Positions 45,452 to 64,000 of a stretch of 64,000 nt of DNA are shown one piece after another (the stretch's first letter is position 1; every line of letters starts with the position of its first letter). The stretch is from assembly GCF_038051985.1 (NCBI RefSeq), contig NZ_CP150291.1:1364001-1428000 (forward strand). Direction: 5' to 3'. Origin of the DNA: Solibacillus sp. FSL H8-0523 (GTDB lineage: Bacteria; Bacillota; Bacilli; Bacillales_A; Planococcaceae). Made by a program: the position numbers and the translations under genes. The notes beneath the pieces are model-generated. The model was not told where the DNA came from and did not search any database. It saw only the letters and a list, made by a program, of their open reading frames with translations.

Positions 45452-45461
45452 GGGGTCTTTC

Positions 45462-45992: not shown

Positions 45993-46003
45993 GGGAGAAC
46001 AAT

Positions 46004-46267
46004 ATGAACGTAGTATTTGTATTAACAGAAACAGCAGAAGAAGTGCTGCATATGGTATCAAACGACGTAGCAGGCTTACTTGCTGCGGTCAAAGGTGATA
46101 ATGTGTCGTTCCCATTTGGCACGTATCAATACGACAGCCACACATTAGATCACTATTTAGTAGAAGACGGCACGTACCAGCAGGAACTAGTTGTGTACTT
46201 AAAGCCCGAGCAAAAAAAGGGAGAGACGGTCTTACCGTTGCCAAACGCAGATAATCCGATTTTTTAA
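46004..46267 (+). CDS. Small hypothetical protein (87 aa)
   Basis: AGGGGAG precedes ATG 46004, 11 bases after the previous stop. It is acidic, soluble and ends LPLPNADNPIF. It is the last gene before a terminator at 46284-46329, so it closes the dsbA-GDPD-tubby-like unit. No family recognised. Confidence 0.7.
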   Translation: MNVVFVLTETAEEVLHMVSNDVAGLLAAVKGDNVSFPFGTYQYDSHTLDHYLVEDGTYQQELVVYLKPEQKKGETVLPLPNADNPIF

Positions 46268-46283
46268 TAAAGGAAAAACAGCG

Positions 46284-46329
46284 CACCTGCTCGAATGTAT
46301 TGTACATACATTACGGGTAGGTGATTTTT
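46284..46329 (+). terminator. Terminator or attenuator overlapping the next gene's SD
   Basis: Arms CACCT / AGGTG and AATGTAT / ATACATT form one hairpin (46284-46323) followed by ATTTTTTT. The distal arm contains AGGTG, the only SD of the gene at 46330, so the stem could stop transcription and hide the ribosome site at once. Confidence 0.65.
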
Positions 46330-46590
46330 TTGGAGCAATTGAGCTTGTTTCAGGTGCTGGAGGGCGACAAACAGCCAAAATTTCAGCTTTTGGACCTAGT
46401 AAAAGTCCAGTTAATTGATGAAAGAATTGACAGTGAAGCGCATCATTATCGTAAATACTATGAGCCGCATATCCTAAACAAAGTAGGGGAAATCTTGCAA
46501 GTGCATGTGACCGCAAAGGCCATTACGTACGAGGTGGAAATTTACGGGGCGAAGTATTATTTACTCGAAGATGAGTTATGCGAGCTGTGA
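46330..46590 (+). CDS. Small hypothetical protein (86 aa)
   Basis: TTG start 5-6 bases after AGGTG, which is part of the upstream hairpin; a GTG at 46321 lies inside that SD. The protein is soluble with QPKFQLLDLVKVQLIDE and a C-terminal beta segment ITYEVEIYGAKYYLLEDEL, resembling a small SH3-like or KOW-like barrel, though this is only an impression. No terminator follows before the NptA gene 126 bases on. Confidence 0.6.
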   Translation: MEQLSLFQVLEGDKQPKFQLLDLVKVQLIDERIDSEAHHYRKYYEPHILNKVGEILQVHVTAKAITYEVEIYGAKYYLLEDELCEL

Positions 46591-46716
46591 AAAATCGCAC
46601 ATAAAAAGTTCACAATTCCTGTGTATTCCCATTGAAATGTAAACCAATTGTTAAATTTATGTAATTAAAATGTTAAGATAGACTTTTAATGATTATTTCA
46701 ATTTGGTGGTGATGGA

Positions 46717-48288: not shown

Positions 48289-48289
48289 A

Positions 48290-48327
48290 AAATTCCCGAA
48301 CACTTTACGAGGTGTTCGGGAATTTTT
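48290..48327 (+). terminator. Terminator of the NptA gene
   Basis: A 14-bp stem AAATTCCCGAACAC / GTGTTCGGGAATTT, then TT. Confidence 0.85.
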
Positions 48328-48375
48328 ATTAGTCTTCTAGGTTAAAGTGCTAGCCCCTCGACTACTTTAGGAACT

Positions 48376-48582
48376 TTAGCGCTTTTGTTCTTGGTTATAT
48401 TTCTTTTCCATTTTCATACCAATAATACGTACGACGATGCCGATTAAAATGAAAATCCAGCCAAGGCCGATGACAATGTAATTAAAGGTTTGGCTCGCAT
48501 TTGGAACGATATCTAAAAGCCCAATACACGCTACTAAGATACCTGAAAATGTAATTAACAGTCCTGCTGTAACAATACTCAC
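48376..48582 (-). CDS. Small membrane protein (68 aa)
   Basis: GTG start at 48582, 6 bases after GAGGTG; an in-frame GTG three codons earlier overlaps that SD. Two hydrophobic helices (LLITFSGILVACIGLLDIV and YIVIGLGWIFILIGIVVRIIG) and a basic tail KMEKKYNQEQKR suggest an N-out, C-in or hairpin topology. No family recognised. Confidence 0.7.
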   Translation of the reverse strand: MSIVTAGLLITFSGILVACIGLLDIVPNASQTFNYIVIGLGWIFILIGIVVRIIGMKMEKKYNQEQKR

Positions 48583-48752
48583 GTTGTTCACCTCTAATAC
48601 AAAATTTTATCATGAATCGTATGTGCAATTCAATGAACACGATGAAAGTCATCTGGGTGTCACATAATTTTTATTCTTTAATGAATATTTTGAAACTTTT
48701 TACAATATCTTTCGTATGATTAGAAGTATTAGACAAAAAAGGGGGAGACAAC

Positions 48753-50960: not shown

Positions 50961-50962
50961 TT

Positions 50963-50996
50963 ATTTCCCGCTACGATGTGTGCGTAGCGGGAATTT
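50963..50996 (+). terminator. Terminator of the YcdB/SLH gene
   Basis: An 11-bp perfect stem TTCCCGCTACG / CGTAGCGGGAA with a 7-base loop, then TTTA. Confidence 0.8.
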
Positions 50997-51289
50997 ATAC
51001 ATAAATACGATTTTGGATAATGAAGTAGGCGCACAGTAGTAAAATGGAAACATCTTCATGCGTAATTTGGCACGAATTGTTTAGTTGATAGTAAAATAAC
51101 AATATGTTCGAGATACATCACAAAATTAGGAATATACGTTCGGTTTTTTCGGATAACATAGTGGTTTATGTATCGCATTTTATGTTAAAATAAGAAAAAG
51201 CACGGAATCCTAAAAAAAGTCGCGAAAAATTTTAGGAAACGTTGTAATATAGTAAAAGTAATTAATTTTTGATGGAAGTTGGGAAAAGC
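50997..51289. other. Gene-free AT-rich stretch
   Basis: No coding frame with an SD. It probably holds the promoter of the gene at 51290; the best -10 candidate is TAAAAT near 51186-51191, without a good -35. Confidence 0.35.
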
Positions 51290-51778
51290 ATGCAAAAAAA
51301 TAAATATCGCATTCATAGCAATGCATTATTTGAAATTGCGCAAAGTCGTACGTTTACAGATAAGGATAACATCGAAGAGCGCTTCGATGAAGAAGGTAAA
51401 ATTAAATTAGTAAGTGACCGTGCTGGAGCGGAGCTTACGTTATCATTAGTAAAAACAGAAGATGGCCTTGCTTACTTAGTAAAATGGGATGATTCAGAAG
51501 AAATTTACCGTGGCTGGAACATGGCTTGGGAAGAGTTCGTATGGTGCCTAGGCGTTGTTAACAAGCCAATCGAAGAAGCAGCTAAAAAAGCAGCAGAAGA
51601 GGAAGCGGCTCGTCGCGCAGAAGAAGCCGCTTTAGCATTAGCAGCTGAAGAAGCAGCAGCTCTTGAAGAAGTTGTTGAAGAAGCAACTGAAGAGTCTGAA
51701 GTAACAACAGAAGAAGTAACTGAAGAAGTAACTGAAGAAGCAACTGTGGAAGTAGTTTCGGAAGACTTAGAAAAATAA
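51290..51778 (+). CDS. Hypothetical protein with Ala/Glu-rich coiled tail
   Basis: 162 residues from ATG 51290 (GGGAAAAGC upstream; an in-frame TTG at 51269 is possible). Residues 1-~85 are a compact domain (YRIHSNALFEIAQSRTF, LAYLVKWDDSEEIYRGWNMAWEEF). The rest is a strongly acidic, Ala- and Glu-rich helix with repeated EEVTEE units (~90-160), predicted to be coiled or disordered. Cytoplasmic; no family recognised. A terminator follows. Confidence 0.75.
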   Translation: MQKNKYRIHSNALFEIAQSRTFTDKDNIEERFDEEGKIKLVSDRAGAELTLSLVKTEDGLAYLVKWDDSEEIYRGWNMAWEEFVWCLGVVNKPIEEAAKKAAEEEAARRAEEAALALAAEEAAALEEVVEEATEESEVTTEEVTEEVTEEATVEVVSEDLEK

Positions 51779-51784
51779 TACACG

Positions 51785-51823
51785 AAAGACCATCTGAAGC
51801 ACTTGCTGCTTAGATGGTCTTTT
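51785..51823 (+). terminator. Terminator of the Ala/Glu-rich protein gene
   Basis: Arms AAAGACCATCT / AGATGGTCTTT with inner AGCA / TGCT, followed by TG and further T. Confidence 0.85.
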
Positions 51824-51831
51824 GTTTGTTT

Positions 51832-51870
51832 AAAAATGCCGCAGCCCAAAACTTGAGCTACGGCATTTTT
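51832..51870 (-). terminator. Terminator of the MATE gene
   Basis: Arms AAAAATGCCG / CGGCATTTTT around a 19-base loop that itself contains an AGCCC-type stem; T-rich on the minus strand. Confidence 0.75.
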
Positions 51871-53222
51871 TATATTTTTTTACTCGGTCCGACAAGTGCA
51901 AAGCGTTCCCACTTACGACTGCGCCAGCGGAAAATTACTAAAATGGCACGAATCCATTCATCACAGGCAATCGCTAGCCAAATACCAACTAAGCCCATAT
52001 CAAGTACAAAGACGAAGAGATAACCAAGTGATAAACCAATTCCAATCATCGACACAATCCCGATGCGCACAGGGTAAGTTGCATCGCCAGCTGCGCGGAG
52101 CGAGTTAATGATTGTAATATTAATCGTACGTCCTGTTTCTAGAAGAATACTTAATAAGAGCGCACTTGCTCCGATTGCGATAATGTTTTCATTATCGGTA
52201 AATAACGACATGAGCGGTACACGGAAGGTCATAACGAGTGCGACCATCACTAATGTAAAGATAAGTGCAGACTTGACACTAAACCACACCGTTTTATAAG
52301 CTAAGTCCTTATCACCTGCACCGACGTAACGTCCCACTAAAATTGCGGTACCTGAGCCGATCGCCATCGCAAATAAATACGTGAACATCGAAATATTCAT
52401 CGCATATTGACGAGCGGATAACGCTTCAGCACCGATGTACGTCACGTAGTATAGTAAAATAATTTGACTAGATTGGTATAAGACTTGCTCTAATGCAGAA
52501 GGAATTCCGATTTTTAAAATCTTTGAAATGTATTCCTTTGAAAAGCGGTAGTAATCTGCAATCTGAATGCGTACTTCAAGCGCTTGATATAACAGCCAGA
52601 AGAACACAATCGCCGCAGCAATTCGGCTAATGACCGAAGAAATTGCTGCACCTTCCACACCAAGCTCCGGTGCGCCAAATTTCCCGAAAATTAAAATGTA
52701 GTTCAAGATGACGTGTAACACGTTCATGCCGAGTGACACATACATTGTTTGCTTTGTCCACCCCTGTACACGAATTACAGAAGAAAGAGATGTAATGAGC
52801 GCCTGTACAAAAATAAAACCACCGACAATGGCTAAATAGCTTTGTGCTGCTTCAAGTACAGGTCCTTGTAAGTTCATCATTTGCATAATTGCATCTGAGA
52901 ATAATATGAACAGTCCACTGAGAATAAGACCAATAATTAAGTTTAACGTCACCGACAGCGCGGCAATTTTAGAAGCATCTGCTAGTAAGCGTGAGCCTAA
53001 GTACTGGGAAACAACAATCGATGCCCCTGTTCCGATCACTCCTAATAGAAGAATCGCGATTTGAATGTATTGGTTGGCCGTCCCGACACCCGCGACTGCA
53101 TTGTCTGATACCGCACTTAGCATAAATGTATCTGCAAGTCCCATGAGCATAAATAAAAACAATTCTAAAAATAAGGGCCATGTAAGTTTAAATAAGCTTA
53201 ATTCTTTCGTTTTGTTTGCCAA
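51870..53222 (-). CDS. MATE family multidrug/metabolite efflux protein
   Basis: 450 residues, 12 hydrophobic helices in two six-helix halves, the usual MATE length. Characteristic phrases are LTWPLFLELFLFMLMGLADTFMLS at the start (split by the family's conserved Pro), GVEGAAISSVISRI in the first half and ARQYAMNISMFTYLFAMAIG in the second. It exports cationic compounds using sodium or proton gradients. The start codon is TTG with only a weak GAGTG SD, so the N-terminus is less certain. It stands alone. Confidence 0.88.
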   Translation of the reverse strand: MANKTKELSLFKLTWPLFLELFLFMLMGLADTFMLSAVSDNAVAGVGTANQYIQIAILLLGVIGTGASIVVSQYLGSRLLADASKIAALSVTLNLIIGLILSGLFILFSDAIMQMMNLQGPVLEAAQSYLAIVGGFIFVQALITSLSSVIRVQGWTKQTMYVSLGMNVLHVILNYILIFGKFGAPELGVEGAAISSVISRIAAAIVFFWLLYQALEVRIQIADYYRFSKEYISKILKIGIPSALEQVLYQSSQIILLYYVTYIGAEALSARQYAMNISMFTYLFAMAIGSGTAILVGRYVGAGDKDLAYKTVWFSVKSALIFTLVMVALVMTFRVPLMSLFTDNENIIAIGASALLLSILLETGRTINITIINSLRAAGDATYPVRIGIVSMIGIGLSLGYLFVFVLDMGLVGIWLAIACDEWIRAILVIFRWRSRKWERFALVGPSKKI

Positions 53223-53535
53223 TTTTGTTTCACTCTTTCGTTCGATAACTTAAAAACAAAGAGAATCGTACCATAAAAAGGGAATCGATGATAGTACGAA
53301 CTTCGAAGTAACAGAATTGCGGAATAAATTAGTAGATATTTGATGTATTACCAAAATTAAAAACTAATTTTCTGATATTCGTAATATAAAAACGACGAAT
53401 TTCGACATTTCGTTACGTAATTGTAATGGCTGTAACATCAAATCGTCATACAACTGAAATATTTAAACGGTAAGCTAATACAAGTTGAATCAAAAAGATT
53501 TTTCACGAAAAGAAGTTGGAGGGAAATATTCAAGT
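53223..53535. other. Intergenic region before the LysM-3D gene
   Basis: AT-rich divergent promoter region; no frame with an SD. TGTAAT and TGTAAC at 53419-53433 resemble WalR half-sites but are 3 instead of 5 bases apart. Confidence 0.4.
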
Positions 53536-54114
53536 ATGATCAAGAAACTATTAGCATTTGCAGTGGCAATAGCTGCTAGCGCATTTATTTTTGCAAGTCC
53601 GTCTTTCGCAGCTACACATACAATTAAATCAGGTGAGAATTTATATATGCTTGCCAAAAAGTACGATACAACAGTAAACGAGCTTATGAAGCTGAACAAT
53701 TTATCATCAAACAAGATTAAGGTTAAACAAGTGCTCAAGCTACCGGCAACTAATCAAAGTAAGCAGGCTGTTGCAAAAAAAGAAACAAAAAAGGTTGCAG
53801 CAACACATCCATCAAACGTAAAGAAAACTTTTACTATGACCGCGACAGCGTACACAGCAAATTGTAAAGGCTGCTCAGGCATCACGAAAACAGGGTTAAA
53901 CTTACGTAAATACCCTGATTTAAAAGTAATCGCAGTGGATCCAAAGGTCATTCCTTTAGGCTCGAAAGTTTGGGTTGAAGGCTACGGCGTGGCAATCGCT
54001 GGGGATACAGGTGGCGCAATTAAAGGTAAAAAAATCGATATTTTCGTAAAAAATAAAAAGACAGCCTATAACTGGGGACGTAAAAAAGTTACGGTCAAGC
54101 TGTTAAAATCATAA
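53536..54114 (+). CDS. Secreted LysM and 3D-domain cell wall protein
   Basis: 192 residues from ATG 53536, the start of a classical signal peptide (MIKKLLAFAVAIAASAF, cleaved near SFA-ATH). GGAGGG is 12 bases upstream, unusually far. One LysM (residues ~27-70, TIKSGENLYMLAKKYDTTV) binds peptidoglycan. A Lys-rich linker follows, then a 3D domain (~98-192) with its acidic residues in TATAYTA, VDPKVIPLGSKVWVEGYG, DTGGAIKGKKIDIF. Such proteins (YocH, YorM) are wall hydrolases of lytic-transglycosylase type. Confidence 0.9.
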   Translation: MIKKLLAFAVAIAASAFIFASPSFAATHTIKSGENLYMLAKKYDTTVNELMKLNNLSSNKIKVKQVLKLPATNQSKQAVAKKETKKVAATHPSNVKKTFTMTATAYTANCKGCSGITKTGLNLRKYPDLKVIAVDPKVIPLGSKVWVEGYGVAIAGDTGGAIKGKKIDIFVKNKKTAYNWGRKKVTVKLLKS

Positions 54115-54120
54115 AAAGGA

Positions 54121-54153
54121 GAGTCGCGTAGCTTAGACTGCGCGGCTCTTTTT
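54121..54153 (+). terminator. Terminator of the LysM-3D gene
   Basis: Stem GAGTCGCG / CGCGGCTC (one G-U pair) with inner AG / CT, then five T. Confidence 0.85.
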
Positions 54154-54271
54154 GGTCTATTAGGAAAGCCTCATTTTGTTAACAATGGCGCGAACGGTGT
54201 TTTTTTATTTTTTTTTACATAAAAGCGTTTATAATAGTACATTAAGTGTGACTTGAAAGAACGTGTTACCC

Positions 54272-54364
54272 ATGTTTACGTATGAAACAAGGTGTCGCTA
54301 TTGCCGCCAGGTTTTTTTAGTAAAAGAAGGCACGAAAAAATATCAGCAGTTTAATCGAGATTAA
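54272..54364 (+). CDS. Possible 30-residue zinc-ribbon-like peptide
   Basis: An ATG frame beginning MFTYETRCRYCRQVFLV has one CxxC and a basic tail, and ends at TAA 54362-54364, overlapping the convergent gene by 4 bases. A TATAAT is 37 bases upstream but no clear SD exists. The CRYCRQ phrase resembles half a zinc ribbon. Confidence 0.3.
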   Translation: MFTYETRCRYCRQVFLVKEGTKKYQQFNRD

Positions 54365-54672
54365 GACATCATTTTTTTTAGGCGTTTCAATTCGAGGATG
54401 AGCTCATCCATTTGGCGCTGCATTTGCTCGGCTTCGAAATAAAACATACTGTTGTTTGACGAATTTGATGAGTTATTTCGGCTTGAATTTGGGTTTGTCC
54501 GGCCATTTGCACTGGGATTACTGGAAGCAGTAGCCTCCTCGACTAAACGAAGGGCAAGGCCAGCAGAAATGGTACCGAGCATGTCACTAAGTGTTAAAAC
54601 AGCAGCACTTGCATAGGCAAAGCGTGCAACTAAAACCTCCAGTGAAGGTTCATTTTTTGGACTTTTATTCAA
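54361..54672 (-). CDS. Hypothetical protein with C-terminal coiled coil (103 aa)
   Basis: TTG start at 54672, 7 bases after AGGAGG; a longer frame has no SD. A moderately hydrophobic segment (VLVARFAYASAAVLTLSDMLGTISAGLAL) is followed by a Ser/Asn-rich linker (SSRNNSSNSSNNS) and a helix ending in MDELILELKRLKKMMS. The pattern is that of a small cytoplasmic or membrane-associated adaptor; no family recognised. Confidence 0.7.
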   Translation of the reverse strand: MNKSPKNEPSLEVLVARFAYASAAVLTLSDMLGTISAGLALRLVEEATASSNPSANGRTNPNSSRNNSSNSSNNSMFYFEAEQMQRQMDELILELKRLKKMMS

Positions 54673-54755
54673 CGAGCTTCCTCCTAGCAAGAGGGTTTTC
54701 GTTAGTATATGCAAAAATTTGTGGAATGTGTGAATGTCGAAAGGGGAGTACGAAT

Positions 54756-55088
54756 GTGGATGCAAAAAAACAACAGATTGAATGTCAAAATTGCCATGAA
54801 ATGATAACAGTTGATTTTGCGACGGCCAATTTTGCTACAGAAGTACGTGTAATGAATGGAAAAAAATCAGAGTCGCGTACATATATAGAAAAATGCCCAA
54901 ACTGTGGGACGATGAATAAAGTGAAAAGCGACAATAAGGCTGATTGGGGTAAACGAAAAGGGCCCAATATGAAACTGTTTATGTTTTCAGGTTTATTTGG
55001 CTGCTTGGCGTTTCTTGTTTTTGGCCTTCTTGCTGTATATTTTGGATTTAAAGGTTTAGGTATAGTATTTGATTGGTTTTTAAATTAG
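54756..55088 (+). CDS. Zinc-ribbon membrane protein (110 aa)
   Basis: GTG start 54756, 7 bases after AAGGGGAG; the frame also runs upstream without an SD. A four-cysteine zinc ribbon (ECQNCHEM ... KCPNCGTM) in residues ~8-52 is followed by a basic stretch and one membrane helix (LFMFSGLFGCLAFLVFGLLAVYF). It is a tail-anchored cytosolic zinc-ribbon protein. Divergent from the coiled-coil gene. Unknown role. Confidence 0.75.
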   Translation: MDAKKQQIECQNCHEMITVDFATANFATEVRVMNGKKSESRTYIEKCPNCGTMNKVKSDNKADWGKRKGPNMKLFMFSGLFGCLAFLVFGLLAVYFGFKGLGIVFDWFLN

Positions 55089-55137
55089 TGATAGCCACAG
55101 TTCAACTAAATAACAAGTAATTTGATATAAAACACAG

Positions 55138-55176
55138 CGATTAAAAGGAATGTGACTTTCTTTTAATCGTTTTTTT
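55138..55176 (+). terminator. Terminator ahead of the eut operon
   Basis: A 10-bp stem CGATTAAAAG / CTTTTAATCG with a 12-base loop, then seven T. It ends the zinc-ribbon gene; it lies 120 bases before eutB1, so a role in eut antitermination cannot be ruled out. Confidence 0.8.
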
Positions 55177-55295
55177 GTTTTCTTAATTTTATGAAAATAT
55201 AGAAAAAAGAAGGATTTTTGTTGTAAAAGATGTTAATTAATAATAATCTTGAATTGTAAGAGTTATCTGTTAATTGATGTGCGGGGGGTGAATGG

Positions 55296-56660
55296 TTGAA
55301 ACTTCAGTACGTGTTAAAGGGAAATCGCTATCAATTTCATTCGGTAAAAGAGGTTTTGGCAAAAGCAAGTGAGGCAAAGTCTGGGGATGTATTAGCAGGC
55401 ATTGCGGCGCAGTCTTCACTTGAACGGATGGCTGCAAAACTTGTATTAAGTGAGCTTACATTAAGGGATATTTTTGAAAACCCAGTCATATCTTACGAGC
55501 AAGATGAGGTGACGCGTGTCATTTATGATGATTTGAGTAGACCCATTTATGAGGACATGCAACATATGACAGTGGGTGAATTACGTAATCGAATATTGTC
55601 GTTTGAGACGGAACAAATGCAACTGGCCAAAATGAGTAGAGGGTTAACGAGTGAAATGATTTCTGCAGTCGCCAAATTAATGTCGAGCATCGATTTAGTC
55701 ATGGCCTCACAAAAAATGCGCTATACCGCACATTGCAACACAACCATTGGGGAACGCGGTCGCCTTGCATTTCGCTGTCAACCAAATCACCCGAATGATG
55801 TATTGGAGGGCATTCTTTATTCCATAAAAGAAGGACTCTCTTACGGCAGTGGCGATGCGGTTATTGGCGTGAATCCAAATAATGATTCGGTGGACTCGGT
55901 AAAAAAGATTTTACAAATGACACATGACTTTATGCAGGAATGGGAAATCCCGACGCAAAATTGTGTACTCGCTCATATTACAACTCAAATGGATGCTGTC
56001 AAAGCGGGTGCGCCTATGGCATTAATGTTTCAAAGCTTGGCAGGTACGCAAAGTGCCAATGAAGCATTTGGGATTTCAAAGGAATTATTAGATGAGGGCT
56101 ATGCGTTAATGAAAGCGCAAGGGACATCTGCGGGTCCAAACTTTATGTACTTTGAAACGGGACAAGGCTCTGAATTTTCACTTGAAACGCATCATGATAT
56201 TGACATGCAGACGTTAGAAGCGCGGACATATGGTTACGCCCGCCACTGGAAGCCGTTTATGGTGAACAATGTTTCAGGTTTTATTGGTCCAGAAACATTG
56301 TATGACGGCAGGCAACTCATTCGTGCGGATTTAGAGGATTTATTTATGGGCAAGTTACATGCCTTACCAATGGGCATTGCGCCAACGTACACGAATCATA
56401 TGGATGCCGATCAAAACGATCAAGAAATTGGCGGGATGCTAACGGCACTGGCCGGCGCAAACTTTTATATGGGGGTACCTGGTGGAGATGATGTCATGCT
56501 GAACTATCAAGATACGAGCTACCATGATGATGCGAGTTTACGAGAAATACTTGGTTTACGACCAATCAAAGAATTTGAAGTATGGCTAGAAAAAATGGGC
56601 ATTATGGAAAACGGTCGTTTAACAAGTAGAGCAGGGGATTTATCCATTTTTGAGCGATAG
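55296..56660 (+). CDS. eutB: Ethanolamine ammonia-lyase large subunit, first copy
   Basis: 454 residues; TTG start after GGGGGGTGA. With EutC and adenosylcobalamin it converts ethanolamine to acetaldehyde and ammonia. Family segments are intact: KSGDVLAGIAAQS, RCQPNHPNDVLEGILYS, GDAVIGVNPNNDS, ETGQGSEFS, GDDVMLNYQDTSYHDDASL and the end NGRLTSRAGDLSIFER. It differs from the second copy in the stretch FIGPETLYDGRQLIRADL and PMGIAPTYTNHMDADQND, which I recall from lyases of non-microcompartment organisms such as Acinetobacter and actinobacteria. It is the first gene of the operon. Confidence 0.93.
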   Translation: MKLQYVLKGNRYQFHSVKEVLAKASEAKSGDVLAGIAAQSSLERMAAKLVLSELTLRDIFENPVISYEQDEVTRVIYDDLSRPIYEDMQHMTVGELRNRILSFETEQMQLAKMSRGLTSEMISAVAKLMSSIDLVMASQKMRYTAHCNTTIGERGRLAFRCQPNHPNDVLEGILYSIKEGLSYGSGDAVIGVNPNNDSVDSVKKILQMTHDFMQEWEIPTQNCVLAHITTQMDAVKAGAPMALMFQSLAGTQSANEAFGISKELLDEGYALMKAQGTSAGPNFMYFETGQGSEFSLETHHDIDMQTLEARTYGYARHWKPFMVNNVSGFIGPETLYDGRQLIRADLEDLFMGKLHALPMGIAPTYTNHMDADQNDQEIGGMLTALAGANFYMGVPGGDDVMLNYQDTSYHDDASLREILGLRPIKEFEVWLEKMGIMENGRLTSRAGDLSIFER

Positions 56661-56671
56661 GAAGTGAACAT

Positions 56672-57511
56672 ATGGATATTGAACAAATTGTCGAGACCGT
56701 ATTAGCCAAAATTCAACAACAGGGAAGATTGCCGACAGAATCACAGCAAACCATGCAATTTAATGAACCAGCTAGTTCGGTGGACGAACCTCTTAATGCG
56801 CAAATTATAGCGCATGCACGAGCGATTACCCCAGCACGAATTGGTATTGGTCATACAGGCACACGCATGAAAACAGCGCATTATCTCCATTTCCGAGTCG
56901 ATCATGCAGCAGCACAGGATGCGGTGTATCAAGAGGTCGATGAAGCGCTATTACAGAGATTGCAATTGCCGATTTTACACAGCAACGCTAAGGATCTAAA
57001 GCAATATTTAATGGATTTACAAGCAGGTAGAACGCTAGCTGAAACTTCAACTTCATGGGTCAAGCAGCATTTAAAGAAGCATATCGACGTGCAAATTATC
57101 ATTAGTAACGGGTTAAGCTCAGCGGCGATTGAAGCTAATATCGAAAGTATTTTGCCGGCGCTTTTACAAGGCTTGCAACTGAAAAATATTACGATGAATC
57201 CGCCTGTTTATGTCAAGCGGGCACGTGTGTGGATACAAGATGAAGTTGCGAAATTAGTAGATTGCAAGCTTGCGATTATTTTAATCGGGGAGCGACCTGG
57301 GTTAAATACAGCTGAATCGATGAGTGCTTATTTAATATATCGACCAACTGATAAAACGGTCGAAGCAGATCGAACTGTGATTTCCAACATTCACGAAGCG
57401 GGATTAGCGCCTGTTGAAGCAGGTGCTTATTTATCGGAAATAATGGCCCAAATGCTGCAACTCGAATGTACGGGCGTCACATTTATGCGTAAGAAAACTG
57501 CTAAGAATTAA
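56672..57511 (+). CDS. eutC: Ethanolamine ammonia-lyase small subunit, first copy
   Basis: 279 residues, 11 bases after eutB1. Conserved segments: ARAITPARIGIGHTGTR, FRVDHAAAQDAVYQEV, VQIIISNGLSSAAIEANIE, ILIGERPGLNTAESMSAYL and EADRTVISNIHEAGLAPVEAG. The usual RPDxGRxL motif is replaced by MDLQAGRTL (residues ~110-118), unlike the second copy (RPDLGRKL), so its lyase partnership may be specific to EutB1. The N-terminal ~45 residues are short and Gln-rich; the EutC N-terminus often targets microcompartments, and this one differs from copy 2. Confidence 0.9.
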   Translation: MDIEQIVETVLAKIQQQGRLPTESQQTMQFNEPASSVDEPLNAQIIAHARAITPARIGIGHTGTRMKTAHYLHFRVDHAAAQDAVYQEVDEALLQRLQLPILHSNAKDLKQYLMDLQAGRTLAETSTSWVKQHLKKHIDVQIIISNGLSSAAIEANIESILPALLQGLQLKNITMNPPVYVKRARVWIQDEVAKLVDCKLAIILIGERPGLNTAESMSAYLIYRPTDKTVEADRTVISNIHEAGLAPVEAGAYLSEIMAQMLQLECTGVTFMRKKTAKN

Positions 57512-57529
57512 GAAAATGGAGGTGGAATG

Positions 57530-58765
57530 ATGGAGTTAATTGGCGTTGTGATTGTTTATATTATTATGGCTTGTGCAGTTGCAGGTGCGTTTGCAGCAAT
57601 TCGGGATGCAGACAATGGGCTCGGCAAAGAGTTTATGAGTGGTTTACACGCGGTAGGCCATATTTTCGTACCTGCTGCTGGGATTATGGCATCGATTCCC
57701 TATTTAACGATTTTCATTGAAAAAGTAGTTAGCCCGATGTTTCATAAAATTGGCGCGGACCCGGCAATTGCGGCTACGACGATTTTAGCGTCTGACATGG
57801 GAGGGTATCAGCTCGCAAATGCGTTAAAGGATTCCCATGAAGGCTTAATTATGGCGTTAATTGTAGGCTTTATGGCGGGTGCAACAATTGTATTCTCGAT
57901 TCCAATGGGACTGGCAATGCTTGATAAGCGCGATCATAAATACATGGCGCTTGGTATTATGGCCGGGGTATTAACGATTCCGATTGGTGCGTTTATTTCA
58001 GCAATTATGGTGTCACTATTTGATACGAAAGTTCGTGAAATTATTGATACTTCCAGTGAACCAACGTATATGTTTAGCATATCCGTGCTGCAAATACTCA
58101 TCAATTTAGCACCACTTTTTGTTTTTGTTATTTTAATCGCACTTGGCTTAAAATTCCTTCCGAATATGATGATTGCAGGATTTATGATTTTCGGTCGCGT
58201 ATTAGATGCCGGCATTAAGCTTGTATTAGTGTTCTCGATTGTAGAAATTTTCACGGGCCTTTTTTCAACGATTTTCGGTAGCTGGGGCTTTGATCCGATT
58301 ATGGCGGATGAGGCAGATCAATTCCGAGCGCTTGAAACGGCTGGTTATATTGGGATTATGCTTGCTGGAGCGTTTCCGATGGTGTATTTAATTCGTAAAT
58401 ACTTTGCAAAACCATTAGAATCTGCGGGTGGTAAATTAGGTTTATCGGCAGTGGGAAGCGCGGGGTTACTTGCGACAATCGCCAATATTTTAGCGATGTT
58501 CACACTTGTCCGTGATATGCCGCCAAAAGATAAAGTTATTAATATTGCATTTGGCGTATGTGCGGCGTTTTTACTCGGGGACCATTTATCATTTACGGCA
58601 AACTTCCAGCCAACGATTATTCTAGCGGTAATTGTTGGGAAATTAGTCGCGGGGATTCTTGCAATTTGGTTAGCGTATAAGCTATCCGTTCCAACTGCGT
58701 TGAAGCTAGAAAAAGAGGATCGTGAAGCCGGCATAATTAAACCGGATGAATATAAAGAAGCATAA
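57530..58765 (+). CDS. eutH: Ethanolamine transporter
   Basis: 411 residues, ten or eleven hydrophobic helices. There are two adjacent ATGs; the second (57530) has the better distance from GGAGG. It begins MELIGVVIVYIIMACAVAGA and contains ASDMGGYQLAN and GDHLSFTANFQP, both strongly conserved in EutH. It facilitates ethanolamine entry when external levels or pH are low. Sits between the first lyase pair and the shell gene eutS. Confidence 0.95.
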   Translation: MELIGVVIVYIIMACAVAGAFAAIRDADNGLGKEFMSGLHAVGHIFVPAAGIMASIPYLTIFIEKVVSPMFHKIGADPAIAATTILASDMGGYQLANALKDSHEGLIMALIVGFMAGATIVFSIPMGLAMLDKRDHKYMALGIMAGVLTIPIGAFISAIMVSLFDTKVREIIDTSSEPTYMFSISVLQILINLAPLFVFVILIALGLKFLPNMMIAGFMIFGRVLDAGIKLVLVFSIVEIFTGLFSTIFGSWGFDPIMADEADQFRALETAGYIGIMLAGAFPMVYLIRKYFAKPLESAGGKLGLSAVGSAGLLATIANILAMFTLVRDMPPKDKVINIAFGVCAAFLLGDHLSFTANFQPTIILAVIVGKLVAGILAIWLAYKLSVPTALKLEKEDREAGIIKPDEYKEA

Positions 58766-58777
58766 GTAGGTGAGGCA

Positions 58778-59119
58778 ATGGCGGAGGAAAAAAAGCGCTT
58801 TATACAGGAGTTTGTACCGGGAAAGCAGTTAACACTTAGTCATTTGATTGCTAACCCGGATAACGATATGTTGCAAAAACTTGGCATCCAAGAGGTAGGT
58901 GCACTGGGGATTTTAACGTGCACACCAAGTGAAACCGTTATTATTGCAGCAGATTTAGCCACGAAAGCATCGCATGTACGCATCGGCTTTTTAGACCGCT
59001 TTACAGGAAGCCTCGTGCTTGTTGGGAGTGTGTCTGAAGTAGAAATGGCGCTCATTGCCATTAACGACTTTTTAGAGCGCAAACTAGGCTATACGCCAGC
59101 GAACATTACGAAATCGTAG
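58778..59119 (+). CDS. eutS: Microcompartment shell protein EutS
   Basis: 113 residues, the family's usual length; TAGGTGAGG precedes the ATG. A single circularly permuted BMC domain: RFIQEFVPGKQLTLSHLIANP at the start, GALGILTCTPSETVIIAADLATKAS in the core and GSVSEVEMALIAINDFLERKLGY at the end. It forms bent hexamers of the ethanolamine microcompartment facets. Together with EutL it shows that this operon builds a shell. Confidence 0.95.
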   Translation: MAEEKKRFIQEFVPGKQLTLSHLIANPDNDMLQKLGIQEVGALGILTCTPSETVIIAADLATKASHVRIGFLDRFTGSLVLVGSVSEVEMALIAINDFLERKLGYTPANITKS

Positions 59120-59127
59120 GTGACATG

Positions 59128-59619
59128 ATGAATAAAGTGATGATAATTGGAGCTATTGGAGCAGGGAAATCAACCTTAACAAAAGCATTGCTTAATAAAG
59201 AACTAAATGCAGTAAAAACACAGGCACTGAATTATGAAGAGTGGATTGTAGATACGCCAGGTGAATATTTAGAAAATCCTTTGTTTTATAAAAATATTAT
59301 GGCTACATCTCTAGAAGTTTCGCATTTAATTTATTTACAAGATGCGACGCGCCAATTATCAAATTTCCCGCCATTTTTTGGAACAGGTATGGCAAAGCTA
59401 CCGATTGGTGTCGTCACAAAGTGTGATGTGGAGAATGCCAATATCGAGCAGGCTATTTACTGGTTAAAACAAGTCATTGGGCAAGCACCGATTGTCATTA
59501 CATCCGCAGTGGAGCAGATTGGTACCGAGCATATTCGCCAGCTTGTCGGCTGTAACAGTGTGCAGGAAATGCGGGATTATGTAGAACGTGCCAATGATCC
59601 ACAATGTTTTTTTGCATAG
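59128..59619 (+). CDS. eutP: EutP/PduV family P-loop protein
   Basis: 163 residues from the second of two adjacent ATGs, 5 bases after AGGTG. The P-loop GAIGAGKST (residues 8-16), switch-like DTPGEY and base-recognition TKCD are present, so a GTPase-like fold is clear. In enteric bacteria EutP has been reported to act as an acetate kinase; here the role is inferred. It starts 8 bases after eutS. Confidence 0.92.
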   Translation: MNKVMIIGAIGAGKSTLTKALLNKELNAVKTQALNYEEWIVDTPGEYLENPLFYKNIMATSLEVSHLIYLQDATRQLSNFPPFFGTGMAKLPIGVVTKCDVENANIEQAIYWLKQVIGQAPIVITSAVEQIGTEHIRQLVGCNSVQEMRDYVERANDPQCFFA

Positions 59620-59632
59620 GAGGTGGGGGTAG

Positions 59633-61063
59633 ATGGCAGCGAAAACACAAACATTACTCAGTGCAGGTATTGATATCGGTACGAGCACAACGAAAATCGT
59701 CATTAGCCGTTTAACGATGCAAAATACAGCAGGTCAAACCCATGTGCCACGCATAGAAATTGTGGATAAAGAGGTGGTTTATAAAAGCCCGATTTTTCGC
59801 ACACCCCTACGCGATGATGTCACGATTGACGTCCAAAAGGTAGAGCAAATCGTATTTGAGCAATACAAATTAGCGAATGTGACGCCTAAGCAAATTGAAA
59901 CTGGGGTTGTTCTCATTACAGGGGAAACGGCAACAAAGAAAAATGCGCGGGAAGTTATTCATTTTTTATCCGATGCAGCGGGTGATTTTTTAGTCGCAAC
60001 GGCCGGTCCGGATTTAGAAAGTATTTTAGCAGCAAAAGGATCCGGAGCAATTGCGTATTCAAAAAATAATGCAAAGGTTATCGCCAATATTGATATCGGT
60101 GGTGGCACAACGAATATTGCGGTAGTAAAGCACGGGGAAGTGATTGGTACCGTGACGCTGCATGTAGGCGGTAGATTAATAGAATACCAGCAACATAAAG
60201 TCACTCAAATCGCACCGTCAATCCAGCGTTTACTGCAAAAGCATACGATGCGTTACGAACGAGGACAGAAACGAGATGAACAAATCGAACGTTACGTCAT
60301 TGAGCAAATGGTGATAAGTCTTTGTGCAGTACTTCAAGCAGAGCAGAAAAGCGAGCGCATCCCGTTATTGCTTGGGCATGTTCCAAACTGGCAGGAGCCC
60401 GTACAAGCGATTATGTTTTCAGGCGGCGTAGCCCAATGTATGTATCCGACAACAGACGCGAGCTGTAATACGGGAACGTTTGATGATCTCGGTCAAAAAA
60501 TCGCGGAAGCCCTGCAGCAAAGTGAAGAATTGAAGCGGTATGAATGGCTGCCACCAAATGAAACGGTGCGTGCTACTGTTACTGGCGCTGGGTCACAGTC
60601 AACAGATGTAAGCGGGGCAACGATTGAACTAGACGAAAACGTACTACCGTTAAAAAATGTACCGGTTGTAACCTGTGATTTGCAGAAGCAAACGACCGGC
60701 ATGACTGAAGTAGTGAAAACAACGATCCAACAGGCAATGCGGTTATTTGATAGTGAACAGAGCGGTGAACCGTTTGCGCTGTATTTAAAAAATATCCCGT
60801 ATTTTAATTTTACAGATATCCAGCAACTTGCAAAAATGATTGTCGGGAATTGGCCTGAAAATAATGCGCTCATTGTCGTCATTCTAGAAGCTGATTATGC
60901 CAAAGTACTTGGGCAAAGCATGGTGCAGTTGAAGGGGCAAAAACAGCTCGTTTGCATTGATCAAGTAGATGTACGGACCGGTGATTATATCGACATCGGG
61001 CGTATGATGCAGGCGGGCGTTGTACCTGTTGTTGTAAAAACATTAGCATTTCATCAAGCATGA
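59633..61063 (+). CDS. eutA: Ethanolamine ammonia-lyase reactivating factor EutA
   Basis: 476 residues; AGGAGGTGG upstream. An actin/Hsp70-like ATPase fold: the phosphate 1 loop SAGIDIGTSTTKIVISRL, and the second loop NIDIGGGTTNIAVV, with the adenosine-contact region MFSGGVAQCMYP. It removes inactivated cobalamin from the lyase so that fresh adenosylcobalamin can enter. It precedes the second lyase pair directly, which suggests that pair is its main client; whether it also serves EutB1C1 is open. Confidence 0.93.
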   Translation: MAAKTQTLLSAGIDIGTSTTKIVISRLTMQNTAGQTHVPRIEIVDKEVVYKSPIFRTPLRDDVTIDVQKVEQIVFEQYKLANVTPKQIETGVVLITGETATKKNAREVIHFLSDAAGDFLVATAGPDLESILAAKGSGAIAYSKNNAKVIANIDIGGGTTNIAVVKHGEVIGTVTLHVGGRLIEYQQHKVTQIAPSIQRLLQKHTMRYERGQKRDEQIERYVIEQMVISLCAVLQAEQKSERIPLLLGHVPNWQEPVQAIMFSGGVAQCMYPTTDASCNTGTFDDLGQKIAEALQQSEELKRYEWLPPNETVRATVTGAGSQSTDVSGATIELDENVLPLKNVPVVTCDLQKQTTGMTEVVKTTIQQAMRLFDSEQSGEPFALYLKNIPYFNFTDIQQLAKMIVGNWPENNALIVVILEADYAKVLGQSMVQLKGQKQLVCIDQVDVRTGDYIDIGRMMQAGVVPVVVKTLAFHQA

Positions 61064-61080
61064 GGAGGTGGAGACATTCG

Positions 61081-62445
61081 ATGAATTTATCGATTAATTT
61101 AGGAGGCATCACGTACGCCTTTCGAGATTTAAAAGAGTTATTTGCGAAGGCGAACGAACAAAAATCAGGCGATGAATTAGCAGGCATTGCAGCGGAAACC
61201 GTACAAGAACGCATCGCTGCAAAAGCAGTAATGAGTGACATTTTACTAAAGGATATTCGTGAAAATCCACTGATTCCGTATGAAGAGGATGAGGTTTCAC
61301 GTTTACTCGATGAGGATTTAAACGAGCCGATTTACAACGAAATTCAACATTGGTCCGTAGCTGAACTACGTGAGTATATTCTGCGTTTAGATGTAACAAA
61401 TACCGAGCTTCGTCGCATGAGTAAAGGGCTAACATCGGAAATGATTGCGGCTGTAACAAAGCTAATGAGCAATATGGATTTAGTGTATGCGGCTAATAAA
61501 ATTGAAATCATCACCACTTGTAATAGTGCAATTGGTCAAAGGGGTACGTTGTCATCAAGGCTACAGCCGAACCATCCGACAGACAATATTGATGGCATTA
61601 TGGCTTCTTTAAAAGAAGGGTTAGCGTATGGTGTAGGAGATGCGGTAATCGGCATTAATCCTGTTGATGATTCGGTTGAAAGTGTGAAGCGTGTGCTACA
61701 TGCGACAAAGGAATTTATGACGGAATGGCAAGTGCCCACGCAAAACTGTGTACTGGCACATGTGACAACGCAAATGAAGGCCATTCGTCAAGGCGCTCCA
61801 GCAGATATGGTGTTTCAAAGCATTGCTGGTACAGAAAAAGCGAATCGCGCATTTGGTATTTCAATCGAGCTGTTAAAAGAAGCGCAAAGCTTAATTAAAA
61901 AGCAAGGTACATCGGCAGGACCGAATCAATTTTACTTTGAAACGGGACAAGGCTCTGAGTTATCAGCGGAAGCACATTATGATATTGATCAATTAACGCT
62001 TGAATCGAGAAACTACGGCTTTGCACGCCATTTTAATCCGTTTATCGTCAACACCGTTGTTGGTTTTATTGGGCCGGAGTATTTATATGATAGTAAGCAG
62101 GTGATTCGTGCGGGTTTAGAGGATCATTTTATGGGCAAAATGCACGGCCTGCCAATGGGTGTGGATATTTGTTATACGAATCATATAAAAGCCGACCAAA
62201 ATGACAATGAAAATTTAGGGGTGCTACTCGCTGCAGCGGGTGTGAATTTTATTATTGCTGCACCAATGGGCGATGACGTCATGCTGAATTATCAGTCGAT
62301 GAGCTATCATGATGTTCCGACACTGCAAGAACTGTTCAATAAAAGACCAGCACCACAATTTGAACGTTGGCTCGAAAAAATGGGTATTACGGAAAATGGC
62401 CGCTTCACAAGTCGCGCAGGCGATTTAACGATTTTCGAAAAGTAG
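61081..62445 (+). CDS. eutB: Ethanolamine ammonia-lyase large subunit, second copy (microcompartment type)
   Basis: 454 residues from ATG 61081; GGAGGTGGAG upstream. Same fold and length as copy 1, but its signatures match the microcompartment enzymes of Listeria and enterococci as I remember them: SSRLQPNHPTDNIDGIMAS, VNTVVGFIGPEYLYDSKQ, IRAGLEDHFMGKMHGLPMG and CYTNHIKADQND. It is flanked by eutA and eutC2-eutL. The stop and the eutC2 start are 8 bases apart. Confidence 0.95.
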   Translation: MNLSINLGGITYAFRDLKELFAKANEQKSGDELAGIAAETVQERIAAKAVMSDILLKDIRENPLIPYEEDEVSRLLDEDLNEPIYNEIQHWSVAELREYILRLDVTNTELRRMSKGLTSEMIAAVTKLMSNMDLVYAANKIEIITTCNSAIGQRGTLSSRLQPNHPTDNIDGIMASLKEGLAYGVGDAVIGINPVDDSVESVKRVLHATKEFMTEWQVPTQNCVLAHVTTQMKAIRQGAPADMVFQSIAGTEKANRAFGISIELLKEAQSLIKKQGTSAGPNQFYFETGQGSELSAEAHYDIDQLTLESRNYGFARHFNPFIVNTVVGFIGPEYLYDSKQVIRAGLEDHFMGKMHGLPMGVDICYTNHIKADQNDNENLGVLLAAAGVNFIIAAPMGDDVMLNYQSMSYHDVPTLQELFNKRPAPQFERWLEKMGITENGRFTSRAGDLTIFEK

Positions 62446-62453
62446 GTGAAAAC

Positions 62454-63371
62454 GTGGATAAGGCATTAGTGGAAATGATTACAAAATTAGTGACCGAACG
62501 CTTACAGCAGGAGCACAGTGATTTGAAGCAACCAAAAGCAGTTGAAATTCCAAGTTCGAATGAGCCATTTATTGAGCTTTTTCAGCAAAGAAAACCGAGT
62601 AGTACACAAGTGGTTAGTACGTCTCAAAAAGCGCAAAACGCCAAAGTGTTTGCAGAAACAGTTGATGACAAGTTTGCGCATGCTCGTTCGAAAACACCGG
62701 CACGAGTTGGCGTGGGACTCACGGGGCCAAGACCTTTGACCAATACCATGCTAAAGTTCCGCTTTGATCATGCAGCTGCAGTCGATGCGGTTTACGGGGA
62801 AGTGGAGCAAGGCTTACTTGAAAAATTGAAGCTGTTTACAATTGACACAAAGGCGCTTGATGACAAGGAAACGTACATTTTACGACCGGATTTAGGACGT
62901 AAATTAACGGATGCAGCGAAGGAAACATTGCTACAAAAATGTGAGAAAAACGCGCAAGTACAAATCATCGTTTCCAATGGCCTAAGTGCGAGTGCAATCA
63001 ATGCTAATTTAGAAAATGTGCTTTTATCATTACAGCAAAGCTTAGCAAGTTTAAATTTGAAAATGGGGACACCGTTTTATATCGAACAAGGACGCGTTGG
63101 TTTAATGGATGATATCGGTGAAGTATTACAGCCGGAAGTGGTTGTCTACTTGATTGGCGAGCGCCCAGGCTTAGTATCGGCAGAATCAATGAGTGCGTAT
63201 TTGTGCTATAAGCCGCGTAAAGAGACGATTGAATCAGACCGTACCGTCGTCTCCAATATTCATAAAGGCGGGATTCCACCTGCAGAAGCTGGGGCGTATC
63301 TCGGGAATTTAATTCAGAAAATTTTGAAATACGAAGCAAGTGGTGTAACGCTCGTGCAAAGAGAGGAATAG
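62454..63371 (+). CDS. eutC: Ethanolamine ammonia-lyase small subunit, second copy
   Basis: 305 residues from GTG 62454, 5-6 bases after TAGGTGA at the end of eutB2; the frame runs upstream inside eutB2 without an SD. Canonical motifs are present: GVGLTGPRPLTN, FRFDHAAAVDAVYGEV, ILRPDLGRKLTDAA, VQIIVSNGLSASAINANLE, LIGERPGLVSAESMSAYL and ESDRTVVSNIHKGGIPPAEAG. The N-terminus (~1-80) has an amphipathic helix ALVEMITKLVTERLQ, of the kind that targets EutC into microcompartments, then a Gln/Ser-rich linker. Confidence 0.94.
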   Translation: MDKALVEMITKLVTERLQQEHSDLKQPKAVEIPSSNEPFIELFQQRKPSSTQVVSTSQKAQNAKVFAETVDDKFAHARSKTPARVGVGLTGPRPLTNTMLKFRFDHAAAVDAVYGEVEQGLLEKLKLFTIDTKALDDKETYILRPDLGRKLTDAAKETLLQKCEKNAQVQIIVSNGLSASAINANLENVLLSLQQSLASLNLKMGTPFYIEQGRVGLMDDIGEVLQPEVVVYLIGERPGLVSAESMSAYLCYKPRKETIESDRTVVSNIHKGGIPPAEAGAYLGNLIQKILKYEASGVTLVQREE

Positions 63372-63383
63372 GAGGCGAAACCA

Positions 63384-64000
63384 TTGTCTAATAAATTGAT
63401 GGCCGATATTTTGGCGATGCAAATTATTCCACGCGTCAATACGCAGTTGGCCAAGGAACTGCAATTAGCGGATTGGCAGCAAAGCGTAGGCATTGTGACC
63501 TTGACCATTGATGACGTTGGCTATACCGCAATCGATGAAGCGACAAAAAAGGCCGATGTCGAAGTTGTCTATGCGAAAAGCTTTTATGCTGGCGCCGCGC
63601 ATGCATCGGGTCCATTATCTGGTGAAATGATCGGGATTGTCGCAGGTTCGTCACCTGATGAAATTCGAAGCGCGTTTGATGCGATTGAACAAAAGGTTGC
63701 GTATGATGCCTATTTTGAAGAGCTCGCACCGGGACATGCGATTTATGCACATACCGTTTCAAGCTGTGGTAGCTATTTAGCTCAAACGGCGGATGTTCCT
63801 GTAGGTTCGGCATTAGCGTATGTGATCGCGCCACCACTTGAGGCAATCGTTGGACTGGATGCGGCATTAAAGGCAGCGGATGTGGAGTTAAAAGTATTTT
63901 TCGGTCCACCTTCTGAAACGAACTTCGGTGGGGGTTTGTTAAGTGGGAGTCAATCATCTTGTAAAGCAGCTACTGATGCATTTCGCGCGGCAATCGAACG
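63384..64000 (+). CDS. eutL: Microcompartment shell protein EutL (partial, cut by window end)
   Basis: TTG start 63384, 8 bases after GGAGG; 205 codons are visible of an expected ~217. A tandem BMC-domain trimer-forming shell protein: first domain from DILAMQIIPRVNTQLAKEL, second from AGAAHASGPLSGEMIGIVAG. GHAIYAHTVSSCGSYLA lies at the start of the pore region and the end CKAATDAFRAAIE is typical. EutL forms a gated central pore for larger substrates. Further shell and aldehyde-dehydrogenase genes presumably lie beyond the window. Confidence 0.93.
   Translation, partial: MSNKLMADILAMQIIPRVNTQLAKELQLADWQQSVGIVTLTIDDVGYTAIDEATKKADVEVVYAKSFYAGAAHASGPLSGEMIGIVAGSSPDEIRSAFDAIEQKVAYDAYFEELAPGHAIYAHTVSSCGSYLAQTADVPVGSALAYVIAPPLEAIVGLDAALKAADVELKVFFGPPSETNFGGGLLSGSQSSCKAATDAFRAAIE

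Follow-up and report, generated by a model that had tools for sequence, protein, structure and literature searches.

The window analysed here is a stretch of 64,000 nucleotides of Solibacillus sp. FSL H8-0523 (contig NZ_CP150291.1, positions 1,364,001 to 1,428,000 of the forward strand), near the end of which an ethanolamine utilization (eut) operon encodes two different ethanolamine ammonia-lyases, EutB1C1 and EutB2C2. Nine genes in the order eutB1-C1-H-S-P-A-B2-C2-L lie on the + strand with intergenic gaps of 5-17 bp and are confirmed as one tight operon that runs on past the window end. This gene order and the two distinct signatures in EutB copies 1 and 2 are just as an earlier, sequence-only reading of this DNA had given them, and its length of 454 residues for each EutB holds provided that eutB2 starts with the ATG at 61081. 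Protein families were called with NCBIfam models and their curated cut-offs. The eight complete eut genes were all matched, eutP and eutA with scores below the cut-off. Coordinates prefixed L003 refer to another stretch of the same genome that covers the operon beyond the window.

55136..55171 (L003 1137-1172), + strand: terminator-like hairpin with a T-run, the upstream operon boundary; one found against a mean of 0.1 in shuffles, by consensus match only
55296..56660, + strand: eutB1, 454 aa, TTG start, variant (B1) clade; NF011649 629.5 bits (cut-off 554)
56268..56387, + strand: eutB1 codons 325-364, remodelled stretch with N325, S327, T334, D345, L349, A362, P363 and T364
56379..56381, + strand: eutB1 codon 362 (GCG), Ala; Asp in E. 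coli and in all 58 compared non-B1 EutB
56672..57511, + strand: eutC1, 279 aa; NF003971 270 bits (cut-off 230)
56672..56725, + strand: encapsulation-peptide-like N-terminal amphipathic helix of EutC1, MDIEQIVETVLAKIQQQG
57527..58765, + strand: eutH, ethanolamine permease; NF011668 686.5 bits (cut-off 575)
58778..59119, + strand: eutS, shell protein; NF012012 126.8 bits (cut-off 123)
59125..59619, + strand: eutP, P-loop accessory protein; TIGR02528 117.2 bits, below the cut-off of 138.35
59633..61063, + strand: eutA, lyase-reactivating factor; NF007992 463.3 bits, below the cut-off of 598
61081..62445, + strand: eutB2, 454 aa, ordinary compartment-type EutB with Asp362 kept (GAT); NF011649 678.5 bits (cut-off 554)
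62454..63371, + strand: eutC2, 305 aa, likely GTG start at 62454; NF003971 275.1 bits (cut-off 230)
62454..62507, + strand: encapsulation-peptide-like N-terminal helix of EutC2
63384..64000 (complete at L003 9385-10032), + strand: eutL, shell protein with BMC domains, running off the window

The genome (4,144,207 bp, one contig) holds exactly these two EutB and no third, and both EutBC pairs score over the curated cut-offs of their family models. The full set of substrate residues of the family (R160, Q162, N193, E287 and D362, in E. coli numbering) is kept in EutB2 only; EutB1 keeps the first four and has Ala in place of D362. Judged by its sequence, EutB2C2 is the classical compartment-type ethanolamine ammonia-lyase.

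The separation of the two large subunits was computed directly. In an EutB tree of 89 rows, thinned at 90% identity from 169 sequences, B1 (31 rows) and the Bacilli B2 (27 rows) form separate clades with a Shimodaira-Hasegawa-like approximate likelihood ratio support (SH-aLRT) of 99 each. A more careful tree of 36 of the 89 rows, with the haloarchaeon left out, gave one clade each for B1 (100/99), the Bacilli B2 (100/99) and six proteobacterial references (100/100); the references have no shell gene within 3 kb on each side, and shells elsewhere in their genomes were not searched for. The haloarchaeon, the seventh reference without nearby shell genes, is a long branch basal to the other 82 rows of the larger tree. 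A recent duplication within Bacilli, with B1 and B2 as tandem paralogues, was rejected by the approximately unbiased test (p-AU 2e-6). With separate deep clades and the recent-paralogue tree rejected, the view that the operon encodes two widely different, anciently separated lyases stands. The companion suggestion, that copy 1 groups with lyases of organisms lacking microcompartments, is not supported, for B1 is a clade of its own and the six references are another, in which the copy-1 signature is missing: all six have Tyr334 and Gly345 where that signature has Thr and Asp. A tree with B1 beside the six references was not rejected (p-AU 0.398, the haloarchaeon not being in the test), a result that does not thereby show membership in a non-compartment group and from which B1 may be an early branch, deep in the EutB tree. 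On the side of the small subunit, EutC1 of Bacilli is one clade (26 rows, 99), and the EutC partners of anaerobe B1 are not one group in the EutC tree. The EutC1 clade has also lost two adjacent residues, Arg-Pro (E. coli EutC 136-137), which 108 other EutC have without exception.

The changes in EutB1 are concentrated around the substrate site. A residue-by-residue match to PDB chain 3abo gives the same numbers as the E. coli numbering used here. R160, Q162, N193, E287, S295, F329 and L402 are kept in 31/31 B1 rows. Ala362, Ser327 and Thr334 are found in all 31 and Asn325 in 30, where the other 58 EutB have Asp, Val, Tyr and Thr, respectively. Twelve of the 104 columns that are identical in at least 57 of those 58 are changed in at least half of the B1 rows, eight of them at 325-379; by the same test a single column was changed for B2 (1/88, 27 rows) and a single one for the 25 remaining rows (1/95), which are clostridial and other anaerobe EutB, E. 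coli, Listeria and one haloarchaeon. A homologue search of 5.8 billion proteins returned 7982 matches, and in the best 120 of these Ala362 and Ser327 are universal and R160, Q162, N193, E287, F329 and L402 are kept. The Desulfosporosinus order repeats the pattern, with D362A and V327S in 17/17 B1 vs 0/12 B2 and the same six residues kept. Compared with E. coli EutB (3abo) and PDB chain 2qez, EutB1 aligns over nearly its full length without gaps, keeps these six residues and has an EutC partner, and it differs by Ala362, Asn325, Ser327, Thr334 and Leu349. From their spacing and the barrel fold of the enzyme, we infer that residues 325, 327, 362 and 364 face the pocket from two adjacent strands. 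Asp362 we take to be the substrate ligand that binds the amino end of ethanolamine. Loss of substrate residues, which the earlier reading had named as grounds against its own view of copy 1, is found for one residue, Asp362; R160, Q162, N193 and E287 are in place.

EutB1C1 might still be an ethanolamine ammonia-lyase, encapsulated together with B2C2 and differing in affinity, rate or inactivation, in which another residue has replaced Asp362. That both pairs pass the family cut-offs, that most substrate residues are kept, that the B1 clade has Asp residues of its own at 406 (31/31), 412 (30/31) and 345 (29/31), and that EutH and EutA are encoded in the same operon all speak for this explanation, which is the main rival to the one we prefer. 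We nevertheless regard it as unlikely, given that 12 otherwise near-invariant columns have changed together and that, as described below, genes of the choline-demethylation type are linked to B1 and not to B2.

Selection on eutB1 bears on whether the altered enzyme works at all. Over six genome pairs the ratio of non-synonymous to synonymous substitution rates (dN/dS) was 0.016-0.054 for EutB1 and 0.019-0.035 for EutB2, dS being above 1 in four of the six; a seventh pair was saturated, and the window's own gene is in no pair. For these six pairs the values rule out B1 as a decaying copy, though the sibling species G009 has lost its B1. The idea that B1 evolves more slowly than B2 was also ruled out, B1 being the more identical of the two in just 80/210 genome pairs. 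Since EutB1 is under strong purifying selection, we read the loss of Asp362 as a changed substrate and not as a dead enzyme. Next after altered kinetics ranks a B1C1 that is catalytically weak or dead and serves as a sensor, as a regulator or as a structural partner; in mixed complexes, for instance, it might adjust the activity of B2C2 or start the packing of B2C2. Such a role would fit the one lost substrate residue, the sensor-kinase and response-regulator genes that adjoin B1C1 in Bacilli (L016, L011, L010, L004), the presence of a second EutB in 43/43 genomes with a close B1 (at least 75% identity to EutB1), and a Synergistaceae locus (L052) where a B2-like and a B1-like eutB precede a single eutC. 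This role appears improbable to us, however, when R160, Q162, N193 and E287 are kept in every B1 row, EutA follows B1C1 in anaerobe loci, Bacilli EutC1 forms its own clade, and three anaerobe genomes have B1 without B2 (G336, G363, G368).

The N-terminus of EutC1, MDIEQIVETVLAKIQQQG, resembles that of E. coli EutC, MDQKQIEEIVRSVMASMGQ, which we take to be an encapsulation signal. An N-terminal extension with this helix motif is present in 46/46 Bacilli-type EutC1 and in 6/7 partners of anaerobe B1, and all seven references that have no shell genes nearby (L181 and L183 included) are without the motif. Among 103 B2-type EutC, a short N-terminus was found in four, namely in a third-copy module of Domibacillus and in three clostridial genes at loci where no shell gene was seen. 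The helix is also kept at 21/21 B1 loci without a shell gene (stretches of at least 8 kb, one at a contig edge), so that B1C1 looks addressed to a shell even when it is encoded apart from one. On two counts, then, B1C1 is unlike a non-compartment lyase: it belongs to its own clade, and its EutC1 bears a targeting-type extension. Encapsulation of B1C1 is probable on these grounds, and the proposal that copy 1 is cytosolic is contradicted by the encapsulation-type helix on EutC1. A division of labour had been suggested in which a cytosolic B1C1 supplies nitrogen and an encapsulated B2C2 supplies carbon, and loci of Lysinibacillus, Sporosarcina and Brevibacillus where B1C1 stands without shell genes within 10 kb would suit it. 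At these lone loci, however, EutC1 has a helix of the same kind as EutC2 and E. coli EutC. In each of the five genomes of this kind for which the other locus was also retrieved, that separate locus is the full shell operon with B2C2, and the helix is missing both from the seven references without nearby shell genes and from EutC of shell-less modules. We see little chance for this division of labour.

A hint as to the substrate comes from anaerobes, in several of which the B1 clade sits in a compartment locus of its own. The Desulfosporosinus locus L044 reads B1-C-EutA, a PocR regulator, a corrinoid protein, an APH-type kinase, an MttB-family methyltransferase, a second corrinoid protein and a methyl-tetrahydrofolate (methyl-THF) methyltransferase. 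Across the Desulfosporosinus order, the series regulator-corrinoid-kinase-MttB-corrinoid follows B1-C1-EutA in 11 of 14 fetched B1 loci, ten of the 11 with the methyl-THF methyltransferase; of the remaining three, L249 (G336) has MttB genes and a THF methyltransferase some 6-10 kb from B1 and two have the THF methyltransferase only. None of the six fetched B2 loci of the order, five of them from genomes of the 14, has any cassette gene. The kinase is single-copy in 15/73 genomes of the order, comprising 13/17 B1 genomes and 2/56 others (both B2-only), and in all 13 it lies 6.0-6.3 kb from eutB1 (Fisher 2.5e-9 for the kinase-B1 association, uncorrected for shared ancestry). Nine distinct anaerobe B1 loci lie outside the 14; an MttB match was found at three of these (L043, L044, L050) and a partial one about 9 kb off at L048, and at L050 a kinase, an EamA transporter and MttB stand upstream of eutS-eutP-B1. 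The MttB genes of L043 and L249 have an in-frame TAG at the pyrrolysine position, and against the model of the trimethylamine enzyme the first part of each reaches 498 and 485 bits, respectively, vs 312-376 for three MttB without TAG. No MttB match was found beside 41 B2-only loci (at least 8 kb each).

The same kinds of genes are known from Eubacterium limosum, in which MthK (a choline kinase related to serine kinases), MthB (of the MttB superfamily), MthC and MthA convert choline to N,N-dimethylaminoethanol, as described in the main text of PMC12155760. That main text contains neither the term eutB nor "ethanolamine ammonia". It names Sporomusa malonica and Ca. Formimonas warabiya for co-localised mthK and mthB homologues, and our cassette kinase has relatives in these very organisms (59% and 58%, respectively). 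Taken together, a pocket that lacks the acid to pair with the ammonium group and the position of related enzymes next to genes for making dimethylaminoethanol suggest that the substrates of this lyase are N-methylated ethanolamines.

We therefore propose that EutB1C1 is a B12-dependent lyase for N-methylated ethanolamine that is packed in the same shell as B2C2, a reading to which we give roughly an even chance (about 0.5). One ethanolamine-type microcompartment would be loaded with two B12-dependent lyases. EutB1C1 would be an ancient sister enzyme with the radical machinery retained and the substrate site largely so, but with Asp362 lost and polar residues at 325 and 327, and it would cleave dimethylaminoethanol, monomethylethanolamine or choline to acetaldehyde and the corresponding methylamine. 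The acetaldehyde would pass to the same aldehyde dehydrogenase and PduL that serve EutB2C2, and because it is usable by them, the presence of B1C1 alongside an ethanolamine compartment would be explained. In a wider and more tentative form, which we hold to be somewhat short of even odds, EutB1C1 is an unrecognised B12-dependent dimethylaminoethanol/choline lyase, the counterpart of CutC on the scaffold of ethanolamine ammonia-lyase; in aerobes, probably including the window's organism, methylated ethanolamines would be a second feed of the classical compartment, and in Desulfosporosinus-type anaerobes the enzyme would work in a second compartment, together with choline demethylation, and release dimethylamine or trimethylamine. 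A different changed substrate, such as a diol, a longer amino-alcohol or di- or triethanolamine, is quite improbable in our view. The neutral, polar pocket would presumably suit several such compounds, and no MttB gene scores over the cut-off in the window's family; against this stands the linkage of B1 to the choline-demethylation-type cassette in anaerobes.

A number of observations weigh against the proposal of an N-methylated-ethanolamine lyase. The role of Asp362 reportedly goes back to Shibata 2010 and Mori 2014; literature searches found no paper that states it. Positions 195 and 364 are not the same in Bacilli B1 as in anaerobe B1, so that the substrates of the two may differ. Acetaldehyde is the product whether ethanolamine or a methylated substrate is cleaved, and the sole transporter in the window operon is EutH. 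In the two genome pairs with dS below 1, dN/dS was somewhat higher for B1 (0.054, 0.041) than for B2 (0.020, 0.035), and of the two EutC cores that of EutC2 is the better conserved in 202/210 genome pairs. The genomic link to demethylation is present in the Desulfosporosinus order and at L043, L050 and L249, and beyond the 14 loci it holds for just 3/9, or four with the partial match. It is absent in Bacilli: no MttB stands beside 47 Bacilli-type B1 loci (at least 8 kb), which confines the linkage to distant anaerobes, and MttB is over the cut-off in 0/261 genomes of the family, the window's own included. The window's genome being without demethylation genes, we infer its own substrate solely by extension from the anaerobes. 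Within the order, the kinase is absent from 4/17 B1 genomes (G336, G363, G365, G368) and present in 2/6 B2-only genomes, and since the genomes with the kinase are close kin the Fisher value overstates the association. MttB genes are multi-copy (3-30 in 14 of the 15 genomes, none in G066), so adjacency to MttB alone is weak and the single-copy kinase carries the argument. The likeness to the E. limosum genes is one of gene kind.

Conservation of both pairs in related genomes had been put forward as a check. EutB1 was used to scan named genomes, and of the 258 loci the 80 best were kept, 43 of them with a close B1; the genomes of all 43 have at least two EutB genes (three in one), and in 22 of the 43 B1 and B2 lie within one stretch of up to 21 kb. 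Many Bacillaceae have the order B1-C1-(sensor kinase, response regulator)-H-S-P-A-B2-C2-L, where the regulators were identified at L016 and L004. Here eutC1 is followed directly by eutH (window 57511-57527), with neither the sensor-kinase nor the response-regulator gene that other Bacilli have at this place. In Lysinibacillus, Sporosarcina and Brevibacillus, B1C1 stands without a shell operon within 10 kb, and named Brevibacillus strains show the same split of a lone B1C1 and a separate shell operon with B2C2; the neighbours of lone Bacilli B1C1 loci gave no hint of a substrate. Within the window's family, EutB occurs in 72/261 genomes, with two intact copies in 15/72. Of the 56 with a single EutB match, all 22 loci read are of the B2 type, as is G155. 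In the genus, EutB was found in 2/16 genomes searched, the window's own included. In the sibling species G009, B1C1 has eroded to fragments (L187 8273-9008) and eutH-S-P-A-B2-C2-L behind it is intact, and therefore B1C1 is an add-on that is dispensable to the B2C2 shell operon. A rule that B1 never occurs without a second EutB was dropped, as it fails in three genomes of the Desulfosporosinus order. G059 has two B1-clade EutB and no B2.

Some variant arrangements were seen along the way. Domibacillus (L004 3718-8688) has a third EutBC with its own EutH and EutA and an EutC with 11 residues before the core, possibly a cytosolic lyase in a genome that also has the two others. Two tandem eutB genes occur in metagenome-assembled genomes of Synergistales (L052 5818-8616; L080/L124); in L052 one small subunit may serve two catalytic subunits. 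The eutB1 of Bacillus sp. FJAT-29937 (L019 9989-11347) is split into two open frames by one in-frame stop, being either a broken gene or a sequencing error. In Lysinibacillus piscis (L010 12737), a BMC-H-like shell gene follows an otherwise lone B1-C1-regulator cluster.

Past the window (L003 9385-14904), the operon continues with an aldehyde dehydrogenase, a BMC-H, two PduL-type phosphotransacylases (PTACs), EutN, a second BMC-H and a malate dehydrogenase. The aldehyde dehydrogenase is of the acetylating type (573.9 bits, below the cut-off of 620.1). An N-terminal encapsulation-type helix is seen by eye on one only of the tandem PTACs (L003 11854-12465, 12458-13318), as if one were inside and one outside the shell. 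The malate dehydrogenase that ends the operon (L003 13957-14904; 436.6 bits vs a cut-off of 351.85) has matching genes behind shell genes in several relatives, and it may substitute in NADH recycling for the alcohol dehydrogenase EutG, of which none was seen in the operon. An Rfam scan of window positions 45000-64000 at gathering scores gave no match. No ANTAR domain was found in the organism's own genome (G000), G009 or G307; the same search was positive in G016, G023, G155 and G263.

The operon shares EutS, EutL, EutN, BMC-H, a PduL-type PTAC, aldehyde dehydrogenase, EutH, EutP, EutA and EutBC with EUT2-type Firmicutes operons as outlined in the relevant parts of PMC4207490 and PMC8217296. 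It differs from these in the extra EutBC pair of another clade at its head, the lack of an ANTAR regulator in the genome and the malate dehydrogenase at its end. Shell genes, a PduL-type PTAC and an aldehyde dehydrogenase with EutBC thus mark it as EUT2-like, and the two-component regulator that the locus survey in PMC4207490 gives for 87% of EUT2 loci is not there. Two EutBC pairs in one organism have likewise been reported for the long and short eut loci of Klebsiella pneumoniae (PMC11101070). In the relevant part of that account the second pair belongs to the short locus, which has import and metabolism genes only, whereas here the helix of the targeting type is found in both pairs and the pocket of one is altered. 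The compartment catalogues treat ethanolamine ammonia-lyase as a single signature enzyme in the sections concerned (PMC4207490, PMC8217296). Our searches of open-licence papers, judged by title and the start of the abstract, for a B12-dependent choline or di-/triethanolamine lyase, two eutB copies, choline demethylation and compartment catalogues did not find a description of the B1 clade. As far as could be seen, then, the scaffold and the shell are known, and the altered subfamily with its proposed substrate is apparently undescribed.

The choline trimethylamine-lyase CutC is an oxygen-sensitive glycyl radical enzyme, in contrast to B1C1, which belongs to a B12 family. If our proposal is right, B1C1 would yield acetaldehyde and a methylamine, as does CutC, an enzyme mentioned in PMC6331629. 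The named B1 homologues among the matches listed are all called ethanolamine ammonia-lyase, one of them also an ethanolamine transporter; if the change in the pocket means a new substrate, the whole B1 clade is mislabelled. Choline-derived compounds could then be turned into acetaldehyde and methylamines by a B12-dependent route, which would bear on the supply of methylamines in sediments and on the choline-to-trimethylamine problem. The operon would, moreover, be a natural example in which two lyases of differing substrates share one shell, and a directly testable model for the evolution of the substrate site in a B12 radical enzyme.

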